DNA of 64,000 nt from positions 1 to 64,000 of the forward strand of contig NZ_BMHH01000015.1 in assembly GCF_014640615.1 (NCBI RefSeq), in the 5' to 3' direction. Both the position numbers and the translations under genes were made by a program. Within the stretch, counting starts at the first letter, position 1; every line of letters begins with the position of its first letter. Positions 739 through 15,881 of this stretch are shown here, piece after piece. This DNA comes from Paramesorhizobium endophyticum (lineage in GTDB: Bacteria; Pseudomonadota; Alphaproteobacteria; Rhizobiales; Rhizobiaceae). Below the pieces are notes generated by a model. That model was not told where the DNA came from. It saw nothing but the letters and a program-made list of their open reading frames with translations, and searched no databases.

Positions 739-1005
739 ATGAGCGACAAGACTATTTCTTCAGTTGAGTTCGTCCGGCATTTCGGACGGTATCATGATGA
801 GGCCATGCGGGAGCCGATTGTGCTTACCAAGCATGGCCGCGCTTCCGTGGTGGTTATGCCGGTCGATCTCTACGAGCGTATGAGAAGCGCGCAAGCCCCT
901 CGCCGTGCCTTTGGTCCGGGCGAAATGCCCCAGGATCTGGCGGATATGTTCCAGGCGCAGCTAGAGCAGGACTCCGCCGACTACCAAGCATCCAAGAATG
1001 ACTGA
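739..1005 (+). CDS. Phd/YefM-family type II antitoxin
   Basis: An 88-residue protein with the Phd/YefM N-terminal DNA-binding fold: SSVEFVRHFGRYHDEA, then the typical strand IVLTKHGRASVVVMPVDLYERM, ending in a charged, probably disordered tail that would wrap the toxin. The start is placed at ATG 739 because the 24 residues upstream of it in the same frame are not antitoxin-like. Its stop overlaps the start of the downstream toxin reading frame (ATG 998), as expected for an operon with translational coupling. In the family the protein neutralises its partner toxin and represses its own promoter. Here the partner is broken, so the antitoxin may be a solitary remnant. Confidence 0.8.
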   Translation: MSDKTISSVEFVRHFGRYHDEAMREPIVLTKHGRASVVVMPVDLYERMRSAQAPRRAFGPGEMPQDLADMFQAQLEQDSADYQASKND

Positions 1006-1416
1006 GCGGTTCGGCAAGGGGGACATTGTCCGCTATCCCTATCTTTGGCGCTGGCAAGATGAATTGGAGCGCGAGCACGGCGAGAAAGCCGCCCGGTTTG
1101 TCTCATCCTCACGTTGCGCGATGAAAAGGGCCTGACGCATATGCTGCTGTTGCCGATCTCATCGAAGCCGCTGCGTGATGGGCAGACCGCCCTTGAAATC
1201 CCGGCGCTCGAGTTGCGCAGGGCGAAGCTGACGGACTATGAGCACGGGTGGATCACCGTCAGCGAGTGCAATTACGATATCCTCGAACGGTCGTTCCACT
1301 TCGATGCCCGCCAAAAGCCGCAGGGCAAATTCAGCGGCATGTTCCTGGAGGAAGTGCGCAAAGCCTTTGCTCCCTTCCTCGCTGCGGGAACCGCCAAGAT
1401 CGACAGGACACGATAG
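998..1416 (+). pseudogene. Frameshifted toxin partner (PemK-like growth inhibitor)
   Basis: The frame starting at ATG 998 reads MTERFGKGDIVRYPYLW and terminates at about 1136. The remainder of an apparent single protein (CLILTLRDEKGLTHMLLLPI to the stop at 1416) continues in the next frame from about 1099. The break falls at GCCCGGTTTG (1091-1100). Restoring CCGG to give CCGGCCGG would join the frames and yield a natural AARPVCLILTLRDEKG, so a 4-bp deletion of a tandem CCGG is the simplest explanation. The opening (KGDIVRYPYLW, RPVCLIL) resembles PemK/MazF-like RNase toxins of Hyphomicrobiales, but the exact family is not certain. A sequencing error cannot be excluded. Confidence 0.65.
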
Positions 1417-1461
1417 GATAGCCGTGGGACGCTGCAAAAATCAGAGCCCCACGAACGTTCA

Positions 1462-2091
1462 TCAAGCCGCCGTAAACACAATCTCCTCCGCCGTCGCGTG
1501 GATGGAGATGGTCATCCCCGACTCCTGCGCCAGAAGCAGCGTGTAATAGGGCTGCACGGAATGGGCGTCGACGGGCTCCTCCGGTTCCTTGCCGCTATGC
1601 AGTTCCAGGAATTTCGGCGGCACGCGCAGCATCGGGCCCTTGGCCGTGATGACGAAGCGCAGGTCGGTTTCCGGATTTTCGATCGCCGCCGTCAGCGAGC
1701 CGCCGCGCGGAATCGCGCCATTGCCGATCAGGATCATGTTGAGCAGCAGCTTCACCTTGTTCTTCGGAAGCAGCACGCGGTTGCCTTCCCACGAGAATTC
1801 CGCCTTCTCGCCCTTCATATATTCGGTCGCGACATTCTGCGCGTCGCCCGTATCGATCTGCACCCCGGCGGACCCGGCGGCGCCAAAGGCGATGCGGGCG
1901 AATTGCAGGCGGGCCGAGGCGTTGCGCGCGCTCGCCTTGATCAGGTTCATCGCATCCTCGTCCGCGCCGCCTTCTTCCAGCAGCTCAAGGCCATTGTTGA
2001 TGGCGCCTACCGGCGAAATAATGTCGTGGCAGATGCGGCTGCACAGAAGCGCGGCAAGATCGGCGGCGGAAAGCTGGAATGGCAGGGACAT
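1462..2091 (-). CDS. chpT: ChpT histidine phosphotransferase
   Basis: A 209-residue dimeric phosphotransferase of the CckA-ChpT-CtrA/CpdR relay that passes phosphate from the hybrid kinase CckA to the master cell-cycle regulator CtrA. The motif LCSRICHDIISPVGAINNGLE carries the phosphorylated histidine. Starting at the ATG with GGAG eight bases upstream (2091) puts it at H22, the position reported for Brucella ChpT. The C-terminal half is the degenerate HATPase-like domain. The gene is divergent from eipA, the arrangement of Brucella abortus, where ctrA is also close by; ctrA is not in this window. A start 21 bases upstream is possible but has no spaced ribosome-binding site. Confidence 0.95.
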   Translation of the reverse strand: MSLPFQLSAADLAALLCSRICHDIISPVGAINNGLELLEEGGADEDAMNLIKASARNASARLQFARIAFGAAGSAGVQIDTGDAQNVATEYMKGEKAEFSWEGNRVLLPKNKVKLLLNMILIGNGAIPRGGSLTAAIENPETDLRFVITAKGPMLRVPPKFLELHSGKEPEEPVDAHSVQPYYTLLLAQESGMTISIHATAEEIVFTAA

Positions 2092-2353
2092 GCACATATC
2101 TCCGGACAGCATGGATTGCTCCGGGCCGAATCACCCGGGATGATCGTCTTTTGGATACACAGCGCTTGCAGCGACGGCAAGGAAAGCGGCCAACGCACCA
2201 AACCAGTCATCGAAACGCCAAGATCGAAACGTAAGGACTTTCGAAAGCATATCGTCGTTTGATAGCGATGATTCGGGCCGAAGCGGACGTCAGATCCGCG
2301 CATGCCCTCCAGGAGCATCAGACAGAGAAGCGAGCAGCCAGAAGGAACATTGA

Positions 2354-2938
2354 ATGGCCTCTCTATCCCTGTCCCCGTCCCGCCTGCGCTTGGCAGGCAT
2401 CTTCGTCGCATTGCTGATGGCGATGCTCGCGCTTGCGCCGCAGGCCCGCGCGAATGACACCTTCACAATGCAGGAGATCGTCGATTCCGGCCATCGCTTC
2501 TTCGGCTCGACCTCGGGCGGCCTTGCCTCGGCCATCGAGAAGATATTCCAGAGCTATGGCCTGCCCAATGGCTATATCCTCGGCGAAGAGGGCTCAGGCG
2601 CGCTCATCGGCGGCCTCACCTATGGCGAGGGCATGCTCTACACCAAGAATGCCGGCGACCATAAGACCTTCTGGCAAGGCCCCTCCATCGGCTGGGACTT
2701 CGGCGGGCAGGGCTCGCGCGTGATGATGCTCGTCTATAATCTCGACGATGTGCAGAACATGTATGGCCGCTATGCCGGCGTTTCCGGCTCGGCCTATGTC
2801 ATCGCCGGCGTCGGCTTCAACGTGCTGAAACGCGGCAATATGCTGCTCGTCCCGGTCCGCACGGGCGTCGGTGCGCGCCTCGGCGTCAATATCGGCTACC
2901 TCAAGCTGACACCGACCCCGACCTGGAACCCGTTTTAA
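2354..2938 (+). CDS. eipA: Envelope integrity protein EipA (DUF1134)
   Basis: A 194-residue periplasmic protein with a cleavable signal peptide (about residues 1-34, ending AQARA-ND) followed by a DUF1134 domain: a small beta-barrel rich in Gly and aromatics (GYILGEEGSGALIGGLTYGEG, WQGPSIGWDFGG). In Brucella, EipA supports cell-envelope integrity and virulence and its gene is controlled by CtrA. I saw no TTAA-N7-TTAA site by eye in the shared 260-bp intergenic region with chpT. The ATG has a good AAGGAA site upstream. The coiled-coil gene 108 bp downstream on the same strand is probably cotranscribed. Confidence 0.93.
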   Translation: MASLSLSPSRLRLAGIFVALLMAMLALAPQARANDTFTMQEIVDSGHRFFGSTSGGLASAIEKIFQSYGLPNGYILGEEGSGALIGGLTYGEGMLYTKNAGDHKTFWQGPSIGWDFGGQGSRVMMLVYNLDDVQNMYGRYAGVSGSAYVIAGVGFNVLKRGNMLLVPVRTGVGARLGVNIGYLKLTPTPTWNPF

Positions 2939-3046
2939 AACCTCGGACTCATTGGCATTGGATGGGCGGCAACGCTGGATTACCGCTCCCAGCTGTGTCA
3001 TTCTGTCCGCAATTCCTGAAAACCGGCAGCATCCTGGACCCCGGAA

Positions 3047-3958
3047 GTGATCGAGTCTGTTCTTTTCTTCATTCTCGGCTTCCTGAGCGCCGCGTTTCTC
3101 GTGGCGCTCGTCGCTCCATCCATATGGCGGCGGGCGGAGGTGCTGACGAGGCGGCGCATCGAGTCCGAGGTGCCGCTGACGCTCAATGAGATCGCGGCCG
3201 ACAAGGACGCGCTCCGGGCCGAACACGCCATGACGGTGCGCAAGCTCGAAATGCGGCTCAGGGAGCTCCAGGAAAAATATAACGAGCAGAAGCTCGCCTT
3301 CGGCGTCAATTATGAGAAGCTGCGGCAGCTTTCCCAAGTGGAGCGCGAGGTGCGCGAGTTGCGCAGCCGCCAGAACGAATGGGAAGAGACCGCAAGTGCG
3401 CTGGCGACGGCGGAACAGAGCCTCGGACAGGTGAAAGGCGAATTGCAGGCCCTGCAATCGGCTCACCACGAGCTCTCAAATCTCTCCGACACGCTGCGCA
3501 TCGAGTTGGCCGTGCGCGAGACCGAACTGGACAAGCTGATGGGAGAACTGGACGACATGCGCCACGACCGTCGCAACAAGGAGGCAGCGCAGCGCGAATT
3601 GTCCGCCGAGGCGAAAGCGGCCAAGGCGGAGCTCAACAGCGAGCGCAAGCGCAACGCCGCGCTGGAAAAGCGCCTGGCGCGCCTGCTCTCCGACCTCACG
3701 GACGCCAAGGAAAAGCTGGAGCGGCGCGAAGGCGAACTGGCGGCGCTGAAAAAAGGCGGAGCCAAGCCCTCAGCAGCCGCAGTGAAAATGGAAGCCGACC
3801 TGCGCGAGCAAATCCGCGACCTGGCGGCGGAAGTGGTGGCCGTGACGGCAGAACGCGAAGGCCCTGCTTCCCCGGTCTATCAGGCTTTGGACGAAGCGAA
3901 GGATGGGGGTGGCAAGGACAGCCTTGCAAAGCGGATAAGGCAGAAGAAGGGGGACTAG
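3047..3958 (+). CDS. Membrane-anchored coiled-coil protein of unknown function
   Basis: A 303-residue protein with one N-terminal membrane helix (ESVLFFILGFLSAAFLVALV, about residues 3-22), a basic patch, and then about 200 residues of heptad-rich helix full of Glu, Lys and Arg. It starts at GTG 3047; the membrane helix begins directly after, so an earlier start is unlikely. The motif PSIWRRAEVLTRRRIESEVP after the helix is recurrent in Hyphomicrobiales homologues, but I know of no assigned function. Position after eipA suggests an envelope or cell-division scaffold role (inference). The C-terminal 60 residues lose the coiled-coil pattern. Confidence 0.8.
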   Translation: MIESVLFFILGFLSAAFLVALVAPSIWRRAEVLTRRRIESEVPLTLNEIAADKDALRAEHAMTVRKLEMRLRELQEKYNEQKLAFGVNYEKLRQLSQVEREVRELRSRQNEWEETASALATAEQSLGQVKGELQALQSAHHELSNLSDTLRIELAVRETELDKLMGELDDMRHDRRNKEAAQRELSAEAKAAKAELNSERKRNAALEKRLARLLSDLTDAKEKLERREGELAALKKGGAKPSAAAVKMEADLREQIRDLAAEVVAVTAEREGPASPVYQALDEAKDGGGKDSLAKRIRQKKGD

Positions 3959-3975
3959 ACCGGTTCCCTTGTCGG

Positions 3976-4168
3976 AAACGGCGGGACAGCGCCCCCTCTG
4001 CCCTGCCGGGCATCTCCCCCGCAAGGGGGAGACTACGCTGTCATCTCCGCCTTCGCCAATCGCGGACGTTTCAAAATAAAATGCCTGTATCGATGAAGGT
4101 CAATCTCCCCCCTTGCGGGGGAGATGTCCGGCAGGACAGAGGGGGGCGCTGTCCCGCCAACGTTTCCC
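3976..4168. repeat. Palindromic intergenic element, copy 1
   Basis: Two inverted arms of the window's main repeat family. The left arm has GGGACAGCGCCCCCTCTGCC then GGGCATCTCCCCCGCAAGGG (3984-4028). The right arm is its reverse complement (about 4107-4158), ending TGTCCCGCCAACG. A variable centre of about 75 bp separates the arms. Four more copies lie at about 37.3, 39.9, 47.4 and 62.5 kb. It sits between two convergent genes and could form a large hairpin in either transcript. Confidence 0.85.
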
Positions 4169-4198
4169 ATTTCCACACTCGCCGAACAAAAAACTTCG

Positions 4199-4594
4199 TC
4201 ACGGCACCAGGTAATGCCCGCTCCACTCGCTGCGAGGCACGACCGCGCCCACCTTATAATCAAACGAGATGATCGACAGATTGTCGTCGGTTGTATGACA
4301 CGTATAGGACAAATGGTACCACTTGCCCTTGCTGCGGAAGGCGGCGCCGGGGGCTTTCATCGCGTGTTCGCTCTTGACCGTATCGGCAAAGGCATAGGCG
4401 ACGAGTTCGTCCGGCGCCATGCCCTTTTTCTCCCGCGAAATACTGCCCATGGCCTTGCCGTTGCACCGCTGCTCCATCCGGGTCTGCGGGTCGAGCTTGG
4501 CTATCTGCCTCTGGATGGCGGCGTTGTTGTCGGCGGCGAGGGAGGGGCCGGCGAGCCCCGCAGCGGCAAGAACAAGAACAGCCGGTCTGAGCAT
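4199..4594 (-). CDS. DUF930 family secreted protein
   Basis: A 131-residue protein with a signal peptide (about residues 1-20, GLAGPSLA-AD) and a DUF930 domain. The C-terminal block LSIISFDYKVGAVVPRSEW is typical of the family, and two cysteines (in RCNGKAMG and SYTCHTTD) probably form a disulfide in the periplasm. The family is widespread in Hyphomicrobiales and has no established function. It lies 24 bp downstream of the aminotransferase gene on the same strand but is probably functionally unrelated to it. Confidence 0.85.
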   Translation of the reverse strand: MLRPAVLVLAAAGLAGPSLAADNNAAIQRQIAKLDPQTRMEQRCNGKAMGSISREKKGMAPDELVAYAFADTVKSEHAMKAPGAAFRSKGKWYHLSYTCHTTDDNLSIISFDYKVGAVVPRSEWSGHYLVP

Positions 4595-4618
4595 CGATAG
4601 CCTCCCTATTTTCCGAAT

Positions 4619-5740
4619 CTATTTCTTTCCGTGGAACTCCCGGATAGCGTCGATGATACGACCCTGGTCAGCCTCGCTCAAGTACGGATGCATCGGCAGG
4701 CTCAGAATACGGTCCGGCAGCGCCTCGGACACCGGCAAGCCGCCCGGAGCCACAGGGTAATGCTTGTAGGCCGTCTGGAGATGCAAGGGCTTCACATAAT
4801 AGACGACCGAGGGAATGCCCGCCGCCGTCAGATGCGCCTTGAGGCCGTCGCGGTCGTCGCTCTCGATCGAATATTGCGCCCAGGCCGAGCGATAGCCCGA
4901 AGGCGTATGCGGCACCTTCACCACATCCTTCAAGCCCTCCGCGTAGCGCTTCGCCACCGCCTGCCGGGCTTCCATCTCGTCTTCGAGAATGGCGAGCTTT
5001 TCGATCAGGATCGCCGCCTGGATCGTGTCGAGGCGGGAGTTGAGGCCGATGCGCACATTGTCGTATTGCGTCTCGCCCTTGCCGTGAAACAGCACCGAGC
5101 GCAGCGTCTCCGCCAGTTCGGCGTCATTAGTGAACATCGCGCCGCCATCGCCATAGCAGCCGAGCGGCTTGGCGGGGTAAAAGCTCGTCGCCGCGACATG
5201 TCCGAACGCGCCGCACATCGCATTGTCGCGCTTGCCGCCGATGGACTGCGCCGCGTCCTCGATGACGAACAGCCCCTCACGCTCCGCCACCGCCATAGTG
5301 GCGTTATATTCAGCGGCAAGACCGAAAAGGTCGACGGGGATGATCGCCTTGGGCTGCAAACGCCCTTCCCGGCGGATCTCAGCGATGGCCGCCTCGAGCT
5401 GCGCCACATTCATGTTGTAGCTGTCGGGGTCGACATCGACAAAGACCGGCTCCGCGCCCACGAGCGCCACCACCTCGGCGGTCGCCGCGAAGGTGAAGCT
5501 CGGGCAGAACACCGCATCGCCCCGCCCGATGCCGCGCGCCATCAGCGGCATCAGCAGCGCGTCGGTCCCGTTGGCGCAGGCAATCACATGCTCGACGCCG
5601 ACATAATCCGCCAGCTTCTTTTCAAATTCGCCCACTTCCGGGCCGAGAATATAGCGCCCATCGGCCACCACTTTGGCGATGGCCTGGTTCAGCCGCTCTC
5701 CGATGCGCTCGCGCTGCGCCGCCAGATCGATGAATTGCAT
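4619..5740 (-). CDS. DegT/DnrJ/EryC1/StrS-family PLP aminotransferase
   Basis: A 373-residue type I-fold sugar aminotransferase. Visible marks are ANGTDALLMPLMARGIGRGD (cofactor phosphate contacts), IEDAAQSIGG (Asp to the PLP nitrogen) and FYPAKPLGCYGDGG with the Schiff-base lysine, full length for the family. It would transaminate a 3-keto nucleotide sugar. The upstream dehydrogenase gene (5953-6957) makes exactly such a ketone, so the pair should produce a 3-amino sugar nucleotide. Brucellaceae lipid A contains 2,3-diaminoglucose made by a GnnA/GnnB pair, and this locus is a candidate. O-antigen amino-sugar synthesis (WlbC/WbpE type) is the alternative. The start has GGAG nine bases upstream. 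Confidence 0.88.
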   Translation of the reverse strand: MQFIDLAAQRERIGERLNQAIAKVVADGRYILGPEVGEFEKKLADYVGVEHVIACANGTDALLMPLMARGIGRGDAVFCPSFTFAATAEVVALVGAEPVFVDVDPDSYNMNVAQLEAAIAEIRREGRLQPKAIIPVDLFGLAAEYNATMAVAEREGLFVIEDAAQSIGGKRDNAMCGAFGHVAATSFYPAKPLGCYGDGGAMFTNDAELAETLRSVLFHGKGETQYDNVRIGLNSRLDTIQAAILIEKLAILEDEMEARQAVAKRYAEGLKDVVKVPHTPSGYRSAWAQYSIESDDRDGLKAHLTAAGIPSVVYYVKPLHLQTAYKHYPVAPGGLPVSEALPDRILSLPMHPYLSEADQGRIIDAIREFHGKK

Positions 5741-5758
5741 GTCTGCTCCATGACGACT

Positions 5759-5823
5759 AGCATGATCCCGAACCGAAGGTCAGCTTTGGCAAACGCGGCA
5801 GGCTTTCGGGAATAGGATCATGC
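5759..5823. repeat. Palindromic repeat between the sugar genes
   Basis: AGCATGATCCCGAA at 5759-5772 is mirrored by TTCGGGAATAGGATCATGC ending at 5822, with a three-base insertion in the right arm. This pattern (GCATGATCC-CGAA) is a recurrent intergenic repeat in alphaproteobacteria. It lies in the 212-bp gap between the dehydrogenase and the aminotransferase and could modulate read-through. Confidence 0.65.
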
Positions 5824-5952
5824 GGCTAAAGAATTGATCCGCCGCCACCCGCGCGCGAATCCTGTGGGATTTGTCTAACGTCTCGCTCAGGCGGTTGCCA
5901 CCAGCCAATATTCAAAGATTGCTTGGGCTTTTAACAACGCTTGAGAGCATTG

Positions 5953-6957
5953 TCATCGCCCGCCGATCACATCCCTGTGTTGATATGGCTCAACCTCGCC
6001 CCGCTTGCCGTGATGCACAGTGCCGGCGGTCAAGATCCGCAGCACGCTGATCGCCTCCTCGCCATCGGTGCGAGGCTTGGCGCGAGTCTCGATGCAATCG
6101 ATGAAATGCTGGCACTCGCGCGTGAGCGGCATCCCCTCCCCGACCGGAATATAGGTCGGCTCCTCGGCGGTGAAGGCCCACTGCCCGTTATCCTGCCAGA
6201 CGGCATGGCGATAGACGGCAAGCTTGCGCTCCCATGGCTCGACATCGTCGAACACGGCCATCGCCTTGGTGCCCACCACCGTCAACCGGCGTTCGCGATA
6301 GGGATTGAGCCGCGAGGCGAAGAGATGGCCGCGCAGATCCCCCGGAAATTTCATATGCACATGCGCGAAGTCGCTGAGATGGTCGAGCACCGCCGCCCCC
6401 TCGCCCCGCACCTCGATGGGCTCGCAGCCGGTCAGCGCCAGGATCATCGAGAGATCGTGCGGCGCAAGATCCCACAGCGCGTCGTTCTCGGTGTGGAACT
6501 TGCCAAGCCCGATACGGTGCGAATGGATATAGCGCACCTCGCCCAGCTCGCCCGACTGCACCAGCTGAAGAAGCTTCTCGAAGGCGGGATGGAAGCGCAG
6601 CACATGGCCGACCATGAAGACGCGGCCATTATCGCGCGCGGCCTTGACCGCCGCCTCGGCGTCGGCGACCGTGAGCGCGATTGGCTTCTCGACGAGCACG
6701 TCCTTCCCATTGGTCACGGCGCGGATGGCGTTTTCGGCGTGAAACTGCGGCGGCAGCGCCAGCACGATGGCATCCACATCCTTATGGGTGAACAGCTCCT
6801 CGACCGGAATATGGAGAACGCCATGCTCAGCGGCAAAGCCGGAAGCCCGGTCACTGTTCTGGTCGGATACGGCATGGAGCGCGCCGAGGGATTTCAAGGT
6901 ACGGATATGGTTGCTGCCCCAATAGCCGCAACCCAATACTGCAATGCGGGGTGCCAT
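5953..6957 (-). CDS. Gfo/Idh/MocA-family sugar dehydrogenase
   Basis: A 334-residue NAD(P)-dependent oxidoreductase. The N-terminal Rossmann motif is IAVLGCGYWGSNHIRTL, the family motif DVLVEKPIALT contains the catalytic EKP lysine, and the helix with HDLSMIL supplies the likely catalytic His. These motifs are typical of the WlbA/GnnA branch acting on UDP-GlcNAc-derived sugars, where the enzyme oxidises C3 to a ketone that the downstream DegT aminotransferase then aminates. Start chosen at MAPRIAV (6957). An in-frame ATG three codons earlier (6966) is possible. Substrate (lipid A diaminoglucose versus O-antigen sugar) cannot be read from the sequence. Confidence 0.86.
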   Translation of the reverse strand: MAPRIAVLGCGYWGSNHIRTLKSLGALHAVSDQNSDRASGFAAEHGVLHIPVEELFTHKDVDAIVLALPPQFHAENAIRAVTNGKDVLVEKPIALTVADAEAAVKAARDNGRVFMVGHVLRFHPAFEKLLQLVQSGELGEVRYIHSHRIGLGKFHTENDALWDLAPHDLSMILALTGCEPIEVRGEGAAVLDHLSDFAHVHMKFPGDLRGHLFASRLNPYRERRLTVVGTKAMAVFDDVEPWERKLAVYRHAVWQDNGQWAFTAEEPTYIPVGEGMPLTRECQHFIDCIETRAKPRTDGEEAISVLRILTAGTVHHGKRGEVEPYQHRDVIGGR

Positions 6958-7143
6958 TAATTTCAACGCCTTCGATTTTGCTCCTCCCCTTATCGGTGCA
7001 AAAGACGGAAAACAAGTCTATTAGACGTTCAAGAACGCTTGACAGCCCCTCACTCCCCACCTTATACCCGCGCCGTTCCTGACAAGAACGGACGCATCGC
7101 TGGCAAGCTTCCATACGGGAAGCAAGCATGATGCGGGCTCCGG

Positions 7144-7220
7144 GGCGGAGTAGCTCAGTAGGTTAGAGCAGAGGAATCATAATCCTTGTGTCGGGGGTTC
7201 GAATCCCTCCTCCGCTACCA
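7144..7220 (+). tRNA. tRNA-Met (anticodon CAT, elongator type)
   Basis: A complete 77-nt cloverleaf including an encoded CCA. The acceptor stem is GGCGGAG/CTCCGCT (first pair G-T), the D-arm GCTC/GAGC, the anticodon stem GAGGA/TCCTT around loop ATCATAA with CAT at 34-36, and the T-arm GGGGG/CCCTC around TTCGAAT. The first acceptor pair is G-T rather than the mismatch of initiator tRNA and the anticodon stem lacks three consecutive G-C pairs, so this is an elongator Met tRNA (a tRNA-Ile with modified CAT is the other formal option). The 3' end borders a foreign-looking AT-rich islet. Confidence 0.96.
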
Positions 7221-7415
7221 TATAAACCTTTGGATTTTTTTGAATTATTTAAGATGAGTTGCTCCCAATTGCGATTTCAAAAATAGCAATTGGCAACCAA
7301 TAAGCATGTAGTTTGCCTTTAAGGATTGAATCAGTCATTAGTCAGCCAAAGCACGTTTTGGGGTTGCAGAAGTCTGGTAGCAGCATAGTGACCTACCATA
7401 GACTAGGAGGGGCGA

Positions 7416-8870
7416 ATGGCTATTCCGTCGATCGGAAACTATAAAAAGCAAAAAGTAGCAGTTGCGAATCTTCAGCTCGATTTGGAGAATTTCCGGACCG
7501 GAACGGTTTCCGATCAAACCGAAGCATTAGCAGCTCTAATCAACAGAAATGCCAATAAAATTAAGGGCATAATAACAAGCATAGCTCAAAATGGTTTCTT
7601 AGATTTGGAAACACCATGTGTATTCCCAGACCCTGCAAAGCCAGGAAAATTCATCGTCGCGGAAGGTAATCGGCGTATTTCCTCGCTTAAAATGCTGCGC
7701 ACACCTACCTTAGCTAAAAATACGCCCCTGATGGGGGAAATAAAGAAAATTAAAGAACAATATAAGACGAAGATACCTACAAGAATTGAGTGCGCCGTTT
7801 TTGGAAATAAAAAGGATTGCCTAGCTTATATTCTTATGCGTCACGGTTACGGTAACGACGGCGCGAGCGTAATTCAATGGAATTCGATAAGCAAACTGCG
7901 GGCACTTGCGTATGTGACTGGTACCGCCCCCCAAGAATTGCGCGTTCTGGATTTCGTTGCCGCCTCTGATTCTTTGCCGCAAAAGATGCGTGAAGTCATT
8001 GATGACGATGAAATCAACATCACCAACCTAGCCAGACTCACTGACGATGCAAACGTTAGAAGGTTACTGCAGATCATCGGACGGGATTGTATAAATAGCA
8101 CCAACGGGAAAGCGTGGATACTCAAAATCTGGCAACGCGTGGTGGAAATAATCATCGACGGCGAATATAAGGGAGAAAAATTCACCGTAGATAAAAATAT
8201 AAACACTACACAGCAACGTCAAGACTTCATAAAAGAAATAATCGCGGAATTTTCCCTTCCAAATTCCAGTGAAGGGCAGGCTACGCCCTATGACGGTAGC
8301 GCGGCAGCGAACAATTTGCCAAGCGCGGAAGCAGACGATGTAGGCAGCACAAATGACGGCACAGAAGCCAGCAATAGCAGTAACACCAGTGCTGCTAGCT
8401 CAGGGGGAAGCAGTAAAACTTCTAAAGTTCAGCCAACCAACAAACGAAACAGTCTTATTCCAAAAACTTTTAACGCACCCGGCCTTTCACCTCAAAAGGT
8501 CGTAAATATATGCGATGAGTTAAAAAAACTTGACATAAAGGCCTTTCGTCATTGCGTTGGAGCTATGTTTCGGGTGTTTGTTGAATTTGGCGTCGAAACC
8601 TACATAATAAATAATCCTATAATCAAACCGAAAAATGACAAACTTGTATCAAAAATCCAGGCTGTCATTGATCATATGCAGGCTAATAACATTCTCACGA
8701 ACAAACAGCTCAAACCTGTACGTGATATAATTAGCAAAGCGAGTCATCCAATTAGCACAGAAACGTTGAATGCCTATGTACATAATGCACACGTAAGCCC
8801 CGACTCAGAGACATTAAAAACTGAGTGGGACAATATTCAGCACTTCATGGAATTACTTTGGAAAAAATAG
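7416..8870 (+). CDS. ParB/Srx-like domain protein
   Basis: A 484-residue protein with no assigned function. The N-terminal ~100 residues look like a ParB/sulfiredoxin-like fold: LDLENFRTG (residues 22-30), a helix GIITSIAQNGF, and FIVAEGNRRISSLKML with the signature EGNRR (83-87) that corresponds to the nucleotide-binding GxxRR region of ParB. A helical middle follows, then a Ser/Asn/Gly/Thr-rich linker (about 285-345) and a helical C-terminal domain (about 350-484). AGGAGGGG sits just upstream of the ATG. The adenine methylase starts 15 bp after its stop, so the two are cotranscribed. No Walker motif or nuclease HNH/PD-ExK motif was seen. CTPase/nuclease or DNA-sensing roles are guesses. Confidence 0.75.
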   Translation: MAIPSIGNYKKQKVAVANLQLDLENFRTGTVSDQTEALAALINRNANKIKGIITSIAQNGFLDLETPCVFPDPAKPGKFIVAEGNRRISSLKMLRTPTLAKNTPLMGEIKKIKEQYKTKIPTRIECAVFGNKKDCLAYILMRHGYGNDGASVIQWNSISKLRALAYVTGTAPQELRVLDFVAASDSLPQKMREVIDDDEINITNLARLTDDANVRRLLQIIGRDCINSTNGKAWILKIWQRVVEIIIDGEYKGEKFTVDKNINTTQQRQDFIKEIIAEFSLPNSSEGQATPYDGSAAANNLPSAEADDVGSTNDGTEASNSSNTSAASSGGSSKTSKVQPTNKRNSLIPKTFNAPGLSPQKVVNICDELKKLDIKAFRHCVGAMFRVFVEFGVETYIINNPIIKPKNDKLVSKIQAVIDHMQANNILTNKQLKPVRDIISKASHPISTETLNAYVHNAHVSPDSETLKTEWDNIQHFMELLWKK

Positions 8871-8885
8871 CAGGAGATTCATGCT

Positions 8886-9749
8886 ATGCTCAACAGATTT
8901 TCACCACTCCGCTACCCCGGTGGAAAAGGGAAGCTCGCTGAATATGTACAGGCGATTTTCAATCAAAATAATTTAAATGATGGACATTACGTCGAACCAT
9001 ACGCAGGCGGTGCAGGGGTAGCGTTGGCACTTCTCTTCACGGGCAATGCATCCCGGGTGCATATCAACGACCTAAATACCGCTGTATATGCTTTTTGGCA
9101 TTCTGTACTCAACAACACTGATGAGTTTTGCAGAAAAGTATGGGACACAGAAATAAGCGTTGAGGAGTGGAATAAACAGAAACTTATCTTAAGAAATCCC
9201 AACGATAATTCCTCGATAGACGTCGGATATGCCATGTTTTTTCTAAACCGCACCAATAGGTCCGGTGTCATTAACGCCGGAATAATTGGCGGAAAGAATC
9301 AGACTGGGAAGTGGAAGATTGATGCGCGATATAATAAGAAGGAATTGGTTGAGCGCATTGAACGTATTACGTCATTTAACACGAAAATTAGCTTATATAA
9401 TTTAGATGCCTGTGCTTTGATAGAGAGGATACAGGATATCATCCCTAAAAAATCTTTGATATATTTTGATCCGCCGTATTACATGAAAGGGGATCGACTT
9501 TACGAAAATCACTATAAAGCAGATGACCACGCAGCGTTGGGTAAATTCATCCAAGAAAAAGTGCAACGGCCATGGATTGTATCCTACGATAATGTAGCCC
9601 AGATTCGGGAAATATATCGCGAACGGCGACAAAAAATATATGAAATTGGATATAGTGTTCGAAAAGTTTATAATGGGTCAGAGGTAATTGTTTTTAGTGA
9701 TGATATATCCGTTCCGGTTATTGAGAACCCGTTGAAAATTTCTGCTTGA
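8886..9749 (+). CDS. D12-class (Dam-like) DNA adenine N6-methyltransferase
   Basis: A 287-residue enzyme that transfers methyl from S-adenosylmethionine to N6 of adenine. RYPGGKGKL (residues 9-17) is motif X of the alpha-type (D12) class, YVEPYAGGAG (35-44) is the AdoMet-binding motif I, and DPPY (195-198) is the catalytic motif IV. The region between (target recognition) is not recognisably GATC-type, so the target site is unknown. Full length for the family and with all motifs, so probably active. AGGAG precedes the start. It is the partner of the upstream ParB-like gene. There is no restriction endonuclease gene next to it, making it an orphan methylase or part of an unusual modification-linked system. 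Confidence 0.92.
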   Translation: MLNRFSPLRYPGGKGKLAEYVQAIFNQNNLNDGHYVEPYAGGAGVALALLFTGNASRVHINDLNTAVYAFWHSVLNNTDEFCRKVWDTEISVEEWNKQKLILRNPNDNSSIDVGYAMFFLNRTNRSGVINAGIIGGKNQTGKWKIDARYNKKELVERIERITSFNTKISLYNLDACALIERIQDIIPKKSLIYFDPPYYMKGDRLYENHYKADDHAALGKFIQEKVQRPWIVSYDNVAQIREIYRERRQKIYEIGYSVRKVYNGSEVIVFSDDISVPVIENPLKISA

Positions 9750-9763
9750 GTATGTGATGACCG

Positions 9764-10807
9764 TTACGCCGACTCCCGCAGCATGATCTCCGCATTGAGC
9801 AGGATGCGCTCGCCCGGCGGCAGAGGGGCGGTTGCGGGGGAGGTTTCGCCCAGTTTGTGCAGGAGCAGCGCCATGGCCAGCCGGCCGATCTCGTTGTAAT
9901 TCTGCGCCACGGTGGTGATTGGCGGGCAGGCGTAGCGCGAGAGCGGATGGTCGTCATGCCCGGCGATACGCAGGTCGCAATCGGCCTCGCGTCCGACCTT
10001 CAGCCCAGCATGATAAGCGGCGGAAATCGCGCCGAACGCCACGCGGTCATTGGCGCAGAGCACCGTTTTCGTCGGAAGTTTCGACCCGTTTTTCAGAAGC
10101 TTCAGCATTTCGTCATAGCCGAACTTCTCGAAATCCCATGTATCCGCCTTGTCCGTCGGCAGCACCACCGGCTCCATCTTCAGCTGCTGCATCGCCTCGA
10201 TATAGGCCAGCTCGCGCGTTGTGGCGTTGGTGTTGACCGGCGGCATGCCGAGATAGCAGGGCGGCTCGCCGGAGCGGCAGAGATAATCGACGATGAGATG
10301 AAAGCTCTGGCGATTGTTGGTGCCGACGAAGGGCGACGTCTCGTTGAGCGGCGAGTCGACATAGATGAGCGGGATCGATGCGCCGAGCGAGAGAAGCTTC
10401 TCGTGATGCGACTGCGCGCCCAGCGGCGCGATGATGGCGCCCGCGACATTCATCGACTTGAACGTCTCGATCGCCCGCTCCTCGATCAGCGGATTGCCGT
10501 CCGAGGAGAGCACGAAGGCGAGAAATCCAGCCTCATTGGCGATGAGCTCCACCCGCCGCGTCAGCGCCATGTAGAACGGGTCGGTGGAATTGGGGACGAT
10601 GACGCCCAGAATGTTGGTGCGGCGGCGGTTGAGGTTGACCGCGAAGATATTCGGGCGGAACCCCGAATCCTTGATCGCCGCCTCGATCAGCTCGCGCGTC
10701 TTGCGGCGCACCGAACTGGGGTCGTTGAAGTATTTCGAGACGGTCGGGCGCGACAGCCCGACATACTCGGAAAAATCCTCCATCGTCCTGATCGGTTTGT
10801 GGGTCAC
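9764..10807 (-). CDS. LacI-family transcriptional regulator
   Basis: A 347-residue repressor. The helix-turn-helix is MEDFSEYVGLSRPTVSKYFN and the hinge LNRRRTNILGVIVPNSTDPFY leads into a periplasmic-binding-protein-like sugar sensor domain (about 65-340). It lies downstream of, and on the same strand as, the gatZ-kinase-ABC operon, so it very likely controls that operon in response to its sugar. The GTG start at 10807 has GGAG only one base upstream. ATG 10783, at MEDFSEYV, is an alternative start right at the HTH. Sequence is GC-rich, unlike the islet that ends 14 bp away. Confidence 0.9.
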   Translation of the reverse strand: MTHKPIRTMEDFSEYVGLSRPTVSKYFNDPSSVRRKTRELIEAAIKDSGFRPNIFAVNLNRRRTNILGVIVPNSTDPFYMALTRRVELIANEAGFLAFVLSSDGNPLIEERAIETFKSMNVAGAIIAPLGAQSHHEKLLSLGASIPLIYVDSPLNETSPFVGTNNRQSFHLIVDYLCRSGEPPCYLGMPPVNTNATTRELAYIEAMQQLKMEPVVLPTDKADTWDFEKFGYDEMLKLLKNGSKLPTKTVLCANDRVAFGAISAAYHAGLKVGREADCDLRIAGHDDHPLSRYACPPITTVAQNYNEIGRLAMALLLHKLGETSPATAPLPPGERILLNAEIMLRESA

Positions 10808-10852
10808 ACTCCGAATCCCTTGCCCCTGAGTCGGTCTAGAGCGGATGGTAAA

Positions 10853-10869
10853 TAGCGAATGGCTCGCTA
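10853..10869. promoter_or_regulatory. Candidate operator upstream of lacI
   Basis: A perfect inverted repeat TAGCGA-N5-TCGCTA lies 46 bp upstream of the lacI start, between lacI and gatZ. Size and symmetry suit a LacI-family dimer, suggesting autoregulation. I did not find the same half-sites in the 130 bp upstream of the binding-protein gene, so a regulon-wide role is unproven. Confidence 0.35.
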
Positions 10870-10885
10870 GTGCTAGTCCTATCGC

Positions 10886-12163
10886 TTAACCGCAAGCCTC
10901 GAAATAATCCTCCAGCACCTTGTCCACCGCCGCGAGCGCAAGCCCTGCCGCGGTGGGGATCGCCCTGCCCTGCCGTACCGCCGGATACAGGCCCGCGAGG
11001 TCCTGGCTGATAAGCGTCTCAGGGATCGTCAAACCGTCCAGCAGCGTGAACAATTCGTCCACTGCGGCCGTCACCTGCGGCTGCGGCCAGTAATAGCGGA
11101 TGCGGTCGCTGTAACTGAAATGGCGTTGCAGGTGCTGCTCGTCGGGCGACCCGTGGTAATATTTCTCCCAGTTCTTCGGTTCCACCGTCAGGACCCGCTC
11201 CATGGTCGCTTGCAGCGTTTCCTTTCGCTTGCCGGGAAAGAGGAATTCGGCAATCCGGTCGAGCCCGTAAAACGCCTCGCGCAGCGAGAAGGTAAGCCCC
11301 GGCCCGACTTTGAGAATGGCGAACCCGTCATTGACAAGGCTGCGCAAAGCCTCGCGCGTCTGGTAATCGGTGGAATGCGCCTCGAAGACGAGGCCGGGAA
11401 GCCGCTCGAGCGCGGCGCTCAAAGCCTTCGCCTTCGCCGGCTCATAGGCGATGATATTGTGATTGCCGAACTCCACGCCCGGCTGCACCACCACGCCGAC
11501 GACACGCGAGAAGGCATCCGCCGCCCCGGCCGCAGCGAATGCCTCGCGATGGACAGTCACCGTCTCCAGAGCCGCTTCCGGCCTGGTGACTTCCAGAACG
11601 TCCAGCTCTTCCATCGCGCCGCCGGGGATCGGAACCTCCGTGCCAACGATATAGACGGGCTTTACCGTACCGACGGGTACGGCTGCCTCCGCCACCGCCG
11701 CAAGGCTTGCCGCGCGCTCCGCCGTAACCGCATCGGGAAGCGCAACGGGTTCACCCGCGCAGCCCATGCTGGTGTCGAGATGCAGCTTGGTGAATCCTGC
11801 TTCCGCATAGGCGCGGATCATCACCCGCGCCTTCGCCATCGCCTCGCCGGGCGGCAGATGCTTCCACGGATTGGGGCCGAGATGGTCGCCGCCGAGGATC
11901 AGCTTTTCCATCGGAAAGCCGGTGCGCGCCGCAATCTCTTCCACGAAGCGGCGGAAATCCAGCGGCGTCATGCCGGTATAGCCGCCATCCTGATTGACCT
12001 GATTGCAGGTCGCCTCGACGAGCAGATGCGCGCCGCGCTTGAGCGCATGGCGCATCGCCGCCTCGATCACCATGGGATGGGCCGAGCAGATCGATGGAAT
12101 GCCGCGAATCCCGCTCTGCCGCGAGCGCCAACTGGCGATATCGGAAAGATGGTTCGTGCTCAT
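10886..12163 (-). CDS. GatZ/KbaZ-family tagatose-phosphate protein
   Basis: A 425-residue TIM-barrel protein of the D-tagatose-1,6-bisphosphate aldolase non-catalytic subunit family. Visible are PSICSAHPMVIEAAM, LLVEATCNQVNQDGGYTGM (metal and phosphate contacts), GGDHLGPNPW and TKLHLDTSMGCAGEP. In E. coli GatZ supports the aldolase GatY, but no GatY is encoded here. In Agrobacterium a GatZ homologue in a similar ABC-transporter operon acts as D-tagatose-6-phosphate 4-epimerase, and that role fits this operon best. Its start overlaps the kinase stop by 4 bp (ATGA), showing translational coupling. Substrate assignment rests on family and context. Confidence 0.85.
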   Translation of the reverse strand: MSTNHLSDIASWRSRQSGIRGIPSICSAHPMVIEAAMRHALKRGAHLLVEATCNQVNQDGGYTGMTPLDFRRFVEEIAARTGFPMEKLILGGDHLGPNPWKHLPPGEAMAKARVMIRAYAEAGFTKLHLDTSMGCAGEPVALPDAVTAERAASLAAVAEAAVPVGTVKPVYIVGTEVPIPGGAMEELDVLEVTRPEAALETVTVHREAFAAAGAADAFSRVVGVVVQPGVEFGNHNIIAYEPAKAKALSAALERLPGLVFEAHSTDYQTREALRSLVNDGFAILKVGPGLTFSLREAFYGLDRIAEFLFPGKRKETLQATMERVLTVEPKNWEKYYHGSPDEQHLQRHFSYSDRIRYYWPQPQVTAAVDELFTLLDGLTIPETLISQDLAGLYPAVRQGRAIPTAAGLALAAVDKVLEDYFEACG

Positions 12164-13113
12164 GCCGTCAATTCCTTCATTTGCGATGTGATCAAGACAT
12201 CGAGTTCAGCGCGGGTCGACGCGCCTTCCATGGGGCCGGCCCTGGTCACTGCCCGCGCGCCCGATGCATTGGCATAGGTCAGCGCCTCGCGCGGCTCCGC
12301 CCCCGCCAGCCAGAAGGTGACGAAGGTCGCGCCGAAGCAATCGCCCGCGCCGGTCGGGTCCACTTCCTCGACGATGAAGCCCGGCACGGTGAGCCGTGTC
12401 GCGGCGTCAAAATAGGTTGCGCCCTCGGCGCCGCGCTTGACCACGATGGCGCGGATGCCCGTGGCGAGCAGTTCGGCCGCCGCCTCGTCCTCCGTCTGCG
12501 CTTCGGCGAAGAGAAAAAGCTCCGGCCCGCTCGGCAGGAAAAGATCGGTCTTGGAAAGTACAGCCTTCAGCGCCTCGCGCATGCCTGGGCTGTCGAGGAT
12601 TTCGGGACGGATGTTCGGATCGAACGAAACGGTTCCGCCGCGCGCCTTGATGCGCTCCACCGCCGTCAAAATGCTCTTGATGAGGCTGCGCGAATAAAGC
12701 GCGCTTCCCATCACATGCAGATGCGTGCAGCCGTCTATGAGGTCCAGCGTCTGCGGCGTCAGCTTGATCCTGCCGCAGGCGCTGTGGCGGATATTGAAGA
12801 CGAAGGCGCGGCTGCCGTCCTCGCGATAGCGCACGAAGGCGCTGCCCGTCGTCCCCTGCGGCACCACTTCGATGCCTGAGATATCGACGTCATCCGCCTT
12901 CAGCCGGTCGAGATTGACATGGCCGAAATCATCGTCGCCGACGCGCGAGATGATGGCGCAATCCTGCCCGAGCTTGCCCACCTGGTCGATGAAGATGGCC
13001 GGCGCGCCTGACGGGAACGGGCCGATCAGCGGCACTGCCTCGCGAAAGCCATTGCCGCGCTTGGTCGCGACGATCTCCACCAGAACCTCGCCGATGGTGA
13101 GAATTTTTGACAT
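12160..13113 (-). CDS. PfkB-family sugar kinase (tagatose kinase-like)
   Basis: A 317-residue ribokinase-fold enzyme. The N-terminal signature is LTIGEVLVEIVATKRG, the substrate-binding glycines are in GAPAIFIDQVGKLG, and the C-terminal PfkB signature VDPTGAGDCFGATFVTFW contains the catalytic Asp and the anion hole. It phosphorylates the sugar imported by the neighbouring ABC system. Next to a GatZ-family gene, D-tagatose is the most likely substrate (as for TagK of Agrobacterium), with fructose or another ketohexose as alternatives. It is third from last in the operon and overlaps gatZ by 4 bp. The ribosome-binding site is weak (AGG nine bases upstream), consistent with coupling to the permease gene 18 bp upstream. 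Confidence 0.88.
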   Translation of the reverse strand: MSKILTIGEVLVEIVATKRGNGFREAVPLIGPFPSGAPAIFIDQVGKLGQDCAIISRVGDDDFGHVNLDRLKADDVDISGIEVVPQGTTGSAFVRYREDGSRAFVFNIRHSACGRIKLTPQTLDLIDGCTHLHVMGSALYSRSLIKSILTAVERIKARGGTVSFDPNIRPEILDSPGMREALKAVLSKTDLFLPSGPELFLFAEAQTEDEAAAELLATGIRAIVVKRGAEGATYFDAATRLTVPGFIVEEVDPTGAGDCFGATFVTFWLAGAEPREALTYANASGARAVTRAGPMEGASTRAELDVLITSQMKELTA

Positions 13114-13131
13114 GTGTATTGCCTGCTTTGA

Positions 13132-14088
13132 TTATTGCTTTGCCCGCTTCGCGCGCACATCGAGATAGACGGCGACGAGGATCACGAGGCCCTTGACGAT
13201 CAGCTGGTAGAAATAGGGCACGGAGAGCATGTTCATGCCGTTGTTCATGACGCCGATGATGAGCGCGCCAATCAGCGTGCCGACCATGGTGCCGACGCCG
13301 CCGGCAAGGCTGGTGCCGCCCAGCACCGCCGCAGCGATGGCGTCGAGCTCATAGCTCACCCCGGCATTGGTCTGCGCCGAGAAGAGACGTGCGGAAAGCA
13401 GGATGCCGCTGACCGCCGCCATGACGCCCGAGATCATGAAGATGATGATCTTCAGCCGGTCCACCTTGATGCCGGAATAGAGCGCCGCCTCGCGGTTGCC
13501 GCCGGTGAGATAGGCCCGCCGCCCGAAGGTGGTCTTGCTCAGCAGGATGTGGTTGACGATGAACAGCGCCGCGACGATCCAGATGATTATCGGTATGCCG
13601 AGGAAACTGTTCGTGCCGATGGCCGTCCAGCTCGAATCGGTAATCATTTCCGGCGCGCCATTGGTCGGCAGGCTGACGAGCCCGCGATAAATGCCCATCG
13701 TCGCAACCGTCACGATGAAGGACGGCAGCATCAGCTTGGCCGTCAGCGTACCGTTGATGAAGCCGAGAATCGCCCCGGTAAGGAGCGTCAGCGCGATGGC
13801 CGGCACGAAGCCGAGCCCAAAGACGAAGCACTGCGCCCCCACCATGCCCGCCACCGCGATGATCGAGCCGATGGAAAGGTCTATCTCGCCCAGCAGGATC
13901 ACCCATGTCATGCCGAAGGCGGCGATGGCGATGACCGACACCTGCTGCAGCACGTTGAGGAAATTCGCCACCGACATGAAGCGGGGATTGACCACTGAGA
14001 AGATGACGATGAGCACGATGAGCGACAGCAGAATGCCGCCATATTGCTTCGCCGCCCTCATCATCGTGGCGTTGGAAATGTTGCTCAT
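13132..14088 (-). CDS. Sugar ABC transporter permease (RbsC type)
   Basis: A 318-residue inner-membrane protein of the CUT2 (ribose/galactitol type) permease family with about 8-10 hydrophobic helices. Typical stretches are TWVILLGEIDLSIGSIIAVA (the LGEIDLS motif that contacts the ATPase) and AVLGGTSLAGGVGTMVGTLI near the C-terminus. It forms the homodimeric channel for the sugar delivered by the binding protein encoded at 15882-16775. Its start overlaps the stop of the ATPase gene by 4 bp, so subunits are made in step. Confidence 0.92.
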   Translation of the reverse strand: MSNISNATMMRAAKQYGGILLSLIVLIVIFSVVNPRFMSVANFLNVLQQVSVIAIAAFGMTWVILLGEIDLSIGSIIAVAGMVGAQCFVFGLGFVPAIALTLLTGAILGFINGTLTAKLMLPSFIVTVATMGIYRGLVSLPTNGAPEMITDSSWTAIGTNSFLGIPIIIWIVAALFIVNHILLSKTTFGRRAYLTGGNREAALYSGIKVDRLKIIIFMISGVMAAVSGILLSARLFSAQTNAGVSYELDAIAAAVLGGTSLAGGVGTMVGTLIGALIIGVMNNGMNMLSVPYFYQLIVKGLVILVAVYLDVRAKRAKQ

Positions 14089-15596
14089 GATGCGGAACCC
14101 GTTGCAAAAGTCATGATCTTTTCCGGCGTGCGGTCGCTGCCCGAAAGGGTGGTACTGAGCCGCCCCTCATGCATGACGGCGATGCGGTCGCTCATGCCGA
14201 TCACCTCCGGCAATTCGGAGGAGATGAGCAGGATCGCCGTGCCTTCCGCGGCCAGTTGGCGAATGATCTTGTAGATTTCGAATTTCGCGCCGACATCGAC
14301 GCCGCGCGTCGGCTCGTCGAGAACAAGGATTTTCGGGCGCGTCAGCAGCCATTTCGCCAGCACGATCTTCTGCTGGTTGCCGCCCGAAAGCGCCCCGGCG
14401 GGTGTTTCCAGCGAGGCGGTCTTGATCGCAAGCCGCTTGACCTCGCCATTGGCCGCCTCGCGCTCTTTGCTCCGGCGAAGAAAGCCGAAGAGATTGGAGA
14501 AAGCCTTCAACCCCACCATGGAGATATTGGAGGAGACGCTGTGGCTCAGCACCAGCCCCTCCTCCTTGCGGTTTTCGGTAACAAAGGCGATGCCCCGTCC
14601 AATCGCCTGCGCGGGAGAGGCAATCGAGACGGTGCTGCCGTCGATGGCGACGGTGCCCGACGAGGCCCGCTTGATGCCGAACAGCGTGTTCATCACCTCC
14701 GAGCGTCCAGAGCCGACAAGGCCGAAAAAGCCGAGGATCTCCCCTGCCCGCACCTCGAACGAAACCTTGTCGAACTCGCCTTCCCGCGAAAGACCATTTA
14801 CCTCCAGAACCGGCGTACCCGTCGGCACGGCCACGTCGCGTGCTGGATAAATCTCGTTCATGTCGCGCCCGACCATCAGCGCGATTAGCTCCTCGATGGT
14901 CGCGTCCTGCTTTTCGCGGGTGGCGATATAGCTTCCGTCACGCATAACGGTGATGTCGTCGCTGAGCCGCATGATCTCCTCCATGCGATGCGAGATGTAG
15001 ATGACCGCGACGCCCTTGCGCTTCAGCCTCTCGACGATGCCGAAAAGGATTTCCGCCTCGCTGTCGCTCAGGGAGGAGGTCGGCTCGTCGAGGATCACCA
15101 CCTTCGCCTCGATACTGAGCCCCTTGGCGATTTCCACCAATTGCCGCTGGGCGATGGAGAGATTGCCGACCTTTTCGGTCACATCGACGGGCAGGCCAAG
15201 CTCATCGACAAGCGCGGCAGCCTGGGCCACAAGCGCCCGGTCGTTGATGAAACCCGCCGTCGCCGGTTCGCGTGTCGCCAGGATGTTTTCGGCAACCGTC
15301 AGATTGTTGCAGAGGCTCAGTTCCTGAAAGACGATGGTCAGCCCCGCTCGCGCCGCCGCCTGCGGGTCGGCGGGCGCATAGGGCGTGCCGTCGAGCACGA
15401 TGCTGCCCGCGGTTGGCTGATAGACCCCGGCCAGGATCTTCATCAGCGTCGATTTGCCCGCGCCGTTCTCGCCGAGGATCGTATGAACCCGCCCGCGCCG
15501 GACCTGCAACTGCATGGATTTCAGCGCCGTCACCTGCCCGAAGGTTTTGGTGACGTCGCGAATATCCAGGATGATATCGTTACCGGAAGAAGCCAT
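14085..15596 (-). CDS. Sugar ABC transporter ATP-binding protein (RbsA type, two domains)
   Basis: A 503-residue protein with two fused nucleotide-binding domains, as in CUT2 importers. The first domain has Walker A GENGAGKST, signature LSIAQRQLVEIAKG and Walker B VVILDEPTSSLS. The second has a degenerate Walker A (GLVGSGRSE), signature LSGGNQQKIVLAKWL and Walker B LVLDEPTRGVD. Only the first P-loop is canonical, which is normal for the family. It energises uptake with the permease encoded downstream. A 285-bp gap holding a large palindromic repeat separates it from the binding-protein gene upstream. Confidence 0.93.
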   Translation of the reverse strand: MASSGNDIILDIRDVTKTFGQVTALKSMQLQVRRGRVHTILGENGAGKSTLMKILAGVYQPTAGSIVLDGTPYAPADPQAAARAGLTIVFQELSLCNNLTVAENILATREPATAGFINDRALVAQAAALVDELGLPVDVTEKVGNLSIAQRQLVEIAKGLSIEAKVVILDEPTSSLSDSEAEILFGIVERLKRKGVAVIYISHRMEEIMRLSDDITVMRDGSYIATREKQDATIEELIALMVGRDMNEIYPARDVAVPTGTPVLEVNGLSREGEFDKVSFEVRAGEILGFFGLVGSGRSEVMNTLFGIKRASSGTVAIDGSTVSIASPAQAIGRGIAFVTENRKEEGLVLSHSVSSNISMVGLKAFSNLFGFLRRSKEREAANGEVKRLAIKTASLETPAGALSGGNQQKIVLAKWLLTRPKILVLDEPTRGVDVGAKFEIYKIIRQLAAEGTAILLISSELPEVIGMSDRIAVMHEGRLSTTLSGSDRTPEKIMTFATGSAS

Positions 15597-15616
15597 GGAT
15601 TTATCCTTTGGGCCGG

Positions 15617-15835
15617 TGACCCTTCACCCTCGCCCTTCGAGGCTCGCTTCGCGAGCACCTCAGGATGAGGGTGAAGGGCCGCGTACCTCCACCAGGGTGA
15701 AGGAACGGCGCTTCAGCAGCCCTCGTCCAGAGGTGCTTTGTGAAGGGCAGCGGCGCTCCAGTAGTCCTCATCCTGAGGTGCGTAGTGAAGCGCAGCGTAA
15801 CGAAGCCTCGAAGGACGAGGGCGCTTGGTGAGCTT
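15617..15835. repeat. Palindromic repeat inside the sugar operon
   Basis: Inverted arms of a second repeat family. ACCCTCGCCCTTCGAGGCTC, then CGCGAGCACCTCAGGATGAG, occupies about 15627-15669. A diverged reverse copy (CCTCATCCTGAGGTGCGTAG, then GCCTCGAAGGACGAGGGCGC) occupies about 15767-15824. Another copy is at about 60.9-61.08 kb. It lies between the binding-protein and ATPase genes, a place where a hairpin would favour high expression of the binding protein relative to membrane subunits (inference). Confidence 0.8.
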
Positions 15836-15881
15836 TTCTCCGACAGAGAAAAGCGCGAGCCGCCGCACGGCCCTGACCGAA

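Follow-up and report, generated by a model that had tools for sequence, protein, structure and literature searches.

A homologue of the PD-λ-5 anti-phage system behind a tRNA-Met gene in Paramesorhizobium endophyticum

PD-λ-5 came from a functional selection in Escherichia coli and was validated as a broad anti-phage system and described as a compacted restriction-modification (R-M) and abortive infection unit (Vassallo et al. 2022, PMC9519451). In that article, an mrr-deleted E. coli host was used, plating or plaque size was affected for all but one of ten phages, and protection was stronger against T-even phages than against λvir (PMC9519451). According to a later survey, the system was discovered in a P2-like prophage (PMC10482375). 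No mechanism paper for PD-λ-5 was recognized in the literature searched, a scope that had bioRxiv and most subscription journals outside it. The present analysis concerns two adjacent genes, here called A and B, located directly behind a tRNA-Met gene in P. endophyticum (assembly GCF_014640615.1, contig NZ_BMHH01000015.1, positions 1 to 64,000; this whole stretch of 64,000 nucleotides is the window, and all coordinates refer to it).

Identity and domains of the two genes

PADLOC assigned both genes to the two components of PD-λ-5. Gene A (7416..8870, + strand, 484 residues, ATG start with AGGAGG at 7405-7410) matched PD-Lambda-5_A (PDLC03998) at 7e-107, with residues 11-483 aligned to positions 4-465 of 466, and gene B (8886..9749, + strand, 287 residues, AGGAG at 8872-8876) matched PD-Lambda-5_B at 1.2e-122 over residues 1-281. 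As in the E. coli system, members of both gene families lie next to each other in the same orientation, A preceding B. On homology, the pair is almost certainly a PD-λ-5-type anti-phage system, i.e., a known kind of system found in a new host and setting. The initial annotation had regarded it as the strongest candidate for an undescribed system; this has to be given up in view of the PADLOC matches of both genes and the anti-phage activity validated in 2022 (PMC9519451). The window pair differs from the E. coli system in lying behind a tRNA gene and outside any recognizable prophage, and the blocking of phages is known only for the E. coli system.

The N-terminal part of A (residues 11-94; 7446..7697, + strand) aligned with ParB_N domains in profile-profile comparison (hhalign probability 96.9, E 1.6e-10), with its EGNRR motif (residues 83-87; 7662..7676, + strand) placed on the GERR motif; the C-terminal part of A, compared with the same domains as a control, gave a probability of 0.1. 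Ten residues were invariant over 49 aligned rows, namely, N25, R27, G84, N85, R86, R87, H143, W155, R207, and H456, the last of these being somewhat alignment-dependent (47 rows and 6 gaps in a 53-row version). Scans with single sequences were weak: A itself had no ParB_N match over the Pfam cut-off, ParB_N was touched by 3 of 49 A relatives (best E 0.0025), NCBIfam parB_part scored 17.4 bits on A, far under its cut-off of 58.45, and a PDB match aligning the GNRR of A with the GERR of Noc was weak at E 0.041. By homology, A is a ParB/Srx-superfamily protein, and the ParB/Srx-like domain with EGNRR first proposed for it is borne out by the profile comparison.

A role of A as a partition ParB was rejected, as no ParB_N match exceeded the Pfam cut-off and no parA was seen by eye beside A; its C-terminal part also differs from that of chromosomal and plasmid ParB proteins, with which it shares the alignment to ParB_N. 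The defence proteins GmrS/DUF262 and DndB resemble A in that their N-terminal domain is ParB/Srx-like and has a conserved motif containing arginine. The motif quoted for GmrS is DGQQR, compared with GNRR in A. A and its relatives differ from GmrS/DUF262 in having no HNH/DUF1524 match, and a single weak GmrSD_N match was found among 49 relatives (E 0.025).

The Ser/Asn-rich linker and tail reported earlier for A are present as well. A variable linker rich in Ser, Ala, Gly, and Asn (8256..8435, + strand; defined by composition and alignment), with 13 Ser in residues 285-340, leads to a C-terminal domain (8433..8867, + strand) carrying R386 (kept in 42 of 49 rows), E390 (E in 39 rows and D in 10), and H456. 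In PHROGs, A matched phrog_9592, a family of unknown function, at 3.2e-55, and its C-terminus gave weak matches to families named 'DNA binding protein' (E 0.0033, residues 333-439) and 'toxin' (E 0.068, residues 405-440). Three chains came up in a PDB search with the C-terminal profile, headed by a C-type lectin at E 0.0013, which had 0 stretches passing on their own and is read as chance.

B is the only gene of the pair recognized by Pfam (MethyltransfD12, 82.4 bits, cut-off 22). Its motifs RYPGGK (8910..8927, + strand) and DPPY (9468..9479, + strand) are invariant in a 7-sequence alignment, in which EPYAGGAG (8994..9017, + strand) was also located; going by family knowledge, EPYAGGAG presumably binds S-adenosylmethionine and we take DPPY to be catalytic. 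The N6-adenine specificity of B is given by the family name only. With all three motifs present in a complete open reading frame (ORF), B is an intact D12-class DNA methyltransferase, as first annotated. B also matches PADLOC models of type II methyltransferases (best 4.3e-98); as a possible difference from type II R-M, no restriction endonuclease family was matched in A.

Conservation of the pair and partners of A

A search of viral contigs with the A alignment yielded 54 A loci, and in 39 of them B follows A on the same strand within 200 nt, several of these 39 being near-identical prophages. In the remainder, B lies elsewhere in the locus (six loci), is absent with at least 1 kb of room (seven), or the contig ends first (two). 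Among 297 genomes of the order, B was found at E 1e-60 or better in nine, the genome of the window included, and an A homologue stands directly beside it in eight of the nine. A-like matches at E 1e-6 or better occurred in 13 of 385 genomes of the class. Within the family, 12 of 199 genomes had an A-like match, with B adjacent in only two (the window's own genome and one other, G064) when flanks of up to 1.5 kb were inspected; most of the other family matches are shorter or belong to an unpaired clade.

A match to B was present in 57 plasmid records, nine of which were opened. A stands beside B in four of them (Mesorhizobium, Kosakonia, Vibrio, and Burkholderia), and the A profile detected no A-like ORF in the other five (Acinetobacter baumannii, Staphylococcus hominis, Planococcus, Psychrobacter, and Mycobacterium; two of these five stretches are cut by the start of the record). 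The B family is thus wider than the pair. The B relatives on these five plasmids (L226, L272, L273, L274, and L275) show 34-48% identity and are possibly orphan methyltransferases, or they are paired with another or a too diverged partner. The arrangement of the two genes also varies: in a Pseudomonas phage, which has both, B is encoded on the strand opposite to A, and a second layout occurs in five viral contigs (L177, L182, L183, L184, and L188), where a shorter A-like protein (371-386 residues) and B converge at a distance of about 1 kb.

The distances among A proteins and among B proteins correlate, with Mantel r 0.92 over 46 adjacent pairs and r 0.70 over 33 non-redundant pairs after removal of close relatives; in neither case was a value as high reached in any of 5000 permutations. 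By sequence comparison, the pair is a conserved, co-diverging unit. Identity to the window proteins is 17-26% for A versus 36-54% for B, so that A is far more divergent, and this fits an immune effector.

In E. coli, one homologous pair type was found in 22 of 5426 genomes; the single copy inspected has the replication endonuclease gene of a P2 prophage on one side and its portal gene on the other, a position described as a defence hotspot by Vassallo et al. (PMC9519451). Searching E. coli with the Pseudomonas phage pair and the Kosakonia pair yielded no match and three short ones confined to the methylase, and a related-locus scan with A alone gave no relative. Conservation of the pair elsewhere and its location in defence settings or at tRNA sites were among the points that the initial annotation had asked to be checked. 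The first holds in the viral contigs and in the B-bearing genomes of the order, and the second in the P2 hotspot; a tRNA site as a shared location does not hold. ARAGORN found a tRNA anywhere in the stretch in only 4 of 35 paired or B-bearing loci (L223, L137, L154, and L158), and tRNA association as a rule of the family was rejected.

Eight full-length A-like loci from Alphaproteobacteria are unpaired (G041, G131, G265, G391, G428, G466, G560, and C18 of the own genome), each with a flank of at least about 1.5 kb unless a contig ended sooner, and all but G265 were opened further. In L230:1714-6937, the A-like gene is directly beside the Gabija genes GajA and GajB (8e-225 and 7e-205), and in L233:3834-11543 HsdS and HsdR of a type I R-M locus enclose it, a weakly SMC_N-like gene separating A from HsdR. 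A HEPN_Cthe2314-like protein is encoded next to A or one gene away in three of the seven opened loci (E 1.2e-6, over the Pfam cut-off, and 5e-4 and 0.085, under it), and a T5orf172/MUG113-type neighbour in three of the seven (over a Pfam cut-off in two, at 0.063 in the third). These HEPN_Cthe2314-like and T5orf172/MUG113-type settings come from the alphaproteobacterial loci L228, L229, L231, and L232 and are a candidate for an unnamed defence cassette; PADLOC gave no match at 1e-5 for the two neighbours in L228.

The genome of the window itself carries both the methyltransferase-paired and a solitary form of A. Its second A-like protein (L132:7923-9260, contig C18), with PD-Lambda-5_A as best model (7.5e-69) and with all invariant residues, is flanked in the genome by an Lrp-like regulator, so named by eye, and by an ORF matching DUF4287; no B-like methyltransferase was found in the 16 kb around it, and no HEPN-like, T5orf172-type, Gabija, or R-M partner. 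Similarly, none of the genes annotated within 5 kb of an A-like copy on an Azospirillum plasmid is a methylase. The unpaired clade is uncommon, with representatives in 6 of 385 genomes of the class and in three viral-contig loci. Tentatively, A could be a portable immune module, consisting of the ParB/Srx domain and the C-terminal part, that is coupled to a D12 methyltransferase, to Gabija, to type I R-M, to a HEPN_Cthe2314-like protein (in some cases together with a T5orf172-type protein), or to nothing; such a module would respond to a shared signal of infection or stand guard over its partner system, and would not read methylation alone.

The islet and the variable interval behind tRNA-Met

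The pair occupies a low-G+C islet of 2.5 kb (7221..9763, + strand) whose left border is a complete tRNA-Met (CAT) gene (7144..7220, + strand; ARAGORN, Rfam RF00005 at 66.9 bits). Homology to relatives ends at the 3' end of the tRNA on the left and at about 9764-9768 on the right. The G+C content of 7221-9763 is 41.8% versus 60.2% for the window, and the lowest value of any 2,543-base stretch outside 6500-10500, taken in steps of 100, is 53.0%. The G+C content at third codon positions is 0.42 in A and 0.41 in B versus 0.81-0.84 in three neighbouring genes. A and B are separated by a 15-nt gap, and both ORFs are complete, each with a Shine-Dalgarno sequence. Coordinates, motifs, and composition agree with the initial annotation of two complete same-strand genes of foreign composition behind tRNA-Met.

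The absence of flanking direct repeats, also claimed there, is upheld: four imperfect two-copy direct families were listed in 6900-10100, all of them within the islet, and there is no tandem array in 6900-10000. The claim that no integrase is present holds in the sense that none was recognized by eye among the ORFs of 1-20000, where neighbouring genes were judged without a family search. On the same basis no phage gene was seen in 1-20000, the islet having tRNA-Met as its left neighbour and a LacI-like regulator as its right one; a prophage location is typical of PD-λ-5 but does not define it. The best explanation is that the islet was horizontally acquired and lodged behind the tRNA-Met gene in a Paramesorhizobium-like genome.

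Five further genomes of the genus were searched. Each retains the left flank and the tRNA (83-85%) as far as the 3' end of the tRNA, whose sequence is identical in four of them, and beyond it nothing islet-like occurs within the next 6 kb. Two of these relatives, G142 and G201, are alike over most of the sequence behind the tRNA (80-88% identity); the other three share short pieces only. In four relatives, the contig of the tRNA also has, 3.1-8.7 kb further on, a match to window positions 18755-20340, identified by eye as ftsK, compared with a distance of 11.5 kb in the window; in the fifth (G199) tRNA and ftsK-region match are on different contigs. The window interval between tRNA-Met and ftsK (7221-18755) differs from those of all five relatives. 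It begins with the defence pair, followed by the LacI-like regulator and by sugar genes (identified by eye), which are on other contigs in G201 and G142, the relatives with a long collinear match. Among named genomes, the LacI-like neighbour protein is closest to those of Paramesorhizobium deserti (94%) and Mesorhizobium sp. RMAD-H1 (91%).

No clean empty site was found among the genus relatives. A search of the own genome with 6000-11500 for a second copy of the tRNA 3' end gave only a 57-base match of 77% in contig C6. In G199, 46 bases at C2:3005-3050 repeat the tRNA 3' end with 98% identity; they lie on the contig of the tRNA itself, at a distance of about 332 kb but in the opposite orientation, and so do not form a simple att pair with it. 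The interval is variable and anchored at the tRNA, and it bears no mark of how the pair arrived.

Elsewhere in the window, an overlapping gene pair at 16908-17560 resembles, judged by eye alone, a PIN-domain toxin with an AbrB-type antitoxin (VapBC-like), and two adjacent proteins of 302 and 310 residues encoded at 28142-30010, mutually similar by eye, lie in a stretch of lower G+C content (50-52%).

Possible mode of action

The best explanation overall, to which we assign a probability of about 0.7, is a horizontally acquired PD-λ-5-type anti-phage system in which B marks DNA and A surveys it and blocks infection. B would methylate adenine at its own motif and so mark host DNA, A would survey DNA through its ParB/Srx domain, and the C-terminal domain of A would block infection once DNA that is unmarked or foreign in some other way appears, whether it attacks directly or acts through abortive infection. 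In other members of the superfamily, the ParB/Srx domain is nucleotide-binding. The division of labour as such, with B marking self DNA and A acting on unmarked or foreign DNA, is given about an even chance. Support for the overall reading comes from the validated homologue, the mrr-deleted host, the co-divergence of the two genes, and the faster evolution of A, and further from the nearly full-length PADLOC matches of both genes, the conserved pairing, the E. coli homologue in the P2 hotspot, and the A-like genes beside Gabija and within type I R-M. Mrr attacks foreign adenine methylation, and the use of a host deleted for mrr is consistent with such methylation by PD-λ-5.

Several results weigh against this reading. 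The window proteins are only about 23% (A) and 45% (B) identical to the E. coli P2-prophage type, and conservation of activity is for this reason assumed; the E. coli pair compared here is an L139-type P2-prophage homologue, whose closeness to the allele tested by Vassallo et al. is likewise assumed. The C-terminal part of A had no credible match to a Pfam family or a solved structure, no nuclease family was matched in A in Pfam or PDB, and comparison of the C-terminus with four HEPN_RiboL-PSP and three Abi_C sequences, with very shallow profiles, gave no match. The cytosines of T-even phages are modified, and the stronger protection against these phages than against λvir is therefore not readily explained by a classical endonuclease acting on unmarked sites. 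The eight unpaired A-like loci and the five plasmids with B and no detectable A also count here: the methyltransferase is one of several partners of A, which makes a model of A reading only the methylation made by B insecure.

The co-divergence of A and B would also suit a guard resembling a toxin-antitoxin system, in which a toxic A is held inactive by B or by the methylation that B makes and is released when a phage blocks B or degrades host DNA, i.e., a pure abortive infection. The description of PD-λ-5 as a combination of R-M and abortive infection also points in this direction (PMC9519451). However, A-like proteins occur without a neighbouring B, both in the own genome on C18, with all invariant residues, and on the Azospirillum plasmid, so that lack of B does not obviously make the A fold lethal, and we regard a guard of this type as rather unlikely.

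The marking and surveying system preferred above has three further competitors. That the pair is merely decayed cargo of a departed integrative element, the outcome which the initial annotation had named as its refutation, would accord with the lack of an integrase seen by eye nearby and of flanking repeats. As far as the checks were run, it is improbable: both ORFs are complete with Shine-Dalgarno sites, the residues invariant in relatives are present in both proteins, and the pair is conserved. An anti-restriction or self-marking module that protects a mobile element and not the host could be argued from the relatives on prophages, phages, and plasmids and from the five plasmids that carry B relatives without detectable A. 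It is hardly probable, as methylation alone would not need A, and measurements on PD-λ-5 showed defence against incoming phage (PMC9519451).

The first proposal for the pair was a minimal modification-dependent defence or an epigenetic switch, and its former half stands, the pair having the appearance of a minimal modification-linked defence unit. A switch, by which A and B would regulate host genes through methylation and ParB-like binding, has in its favour an adenine methylase with a ParB-fold partner and the lack of a recognized restriction enzyme, but is highly improbable in view of the match to a validated defence system, the E. coli homologue in a P2 defence hotspot, the A-like proteins that accompany Gabija and type I R-M, and the low-G+C foreign setting.

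The finding places a defence system validated in E. coli in the Rhizobiaceae, outside a recognizable prophage. The sequences show that both genes co-diverge as a unit. The finding also narrows the question to what A senses and does, and the A-like relatives in other defence loci offer a comparative handle on it: if A works without a methyltransferase, methylation would not be the sole trigger. The system bearing this name is already known; what merits the attention of specialists is its mechanism and the swapping of partners in the A family.

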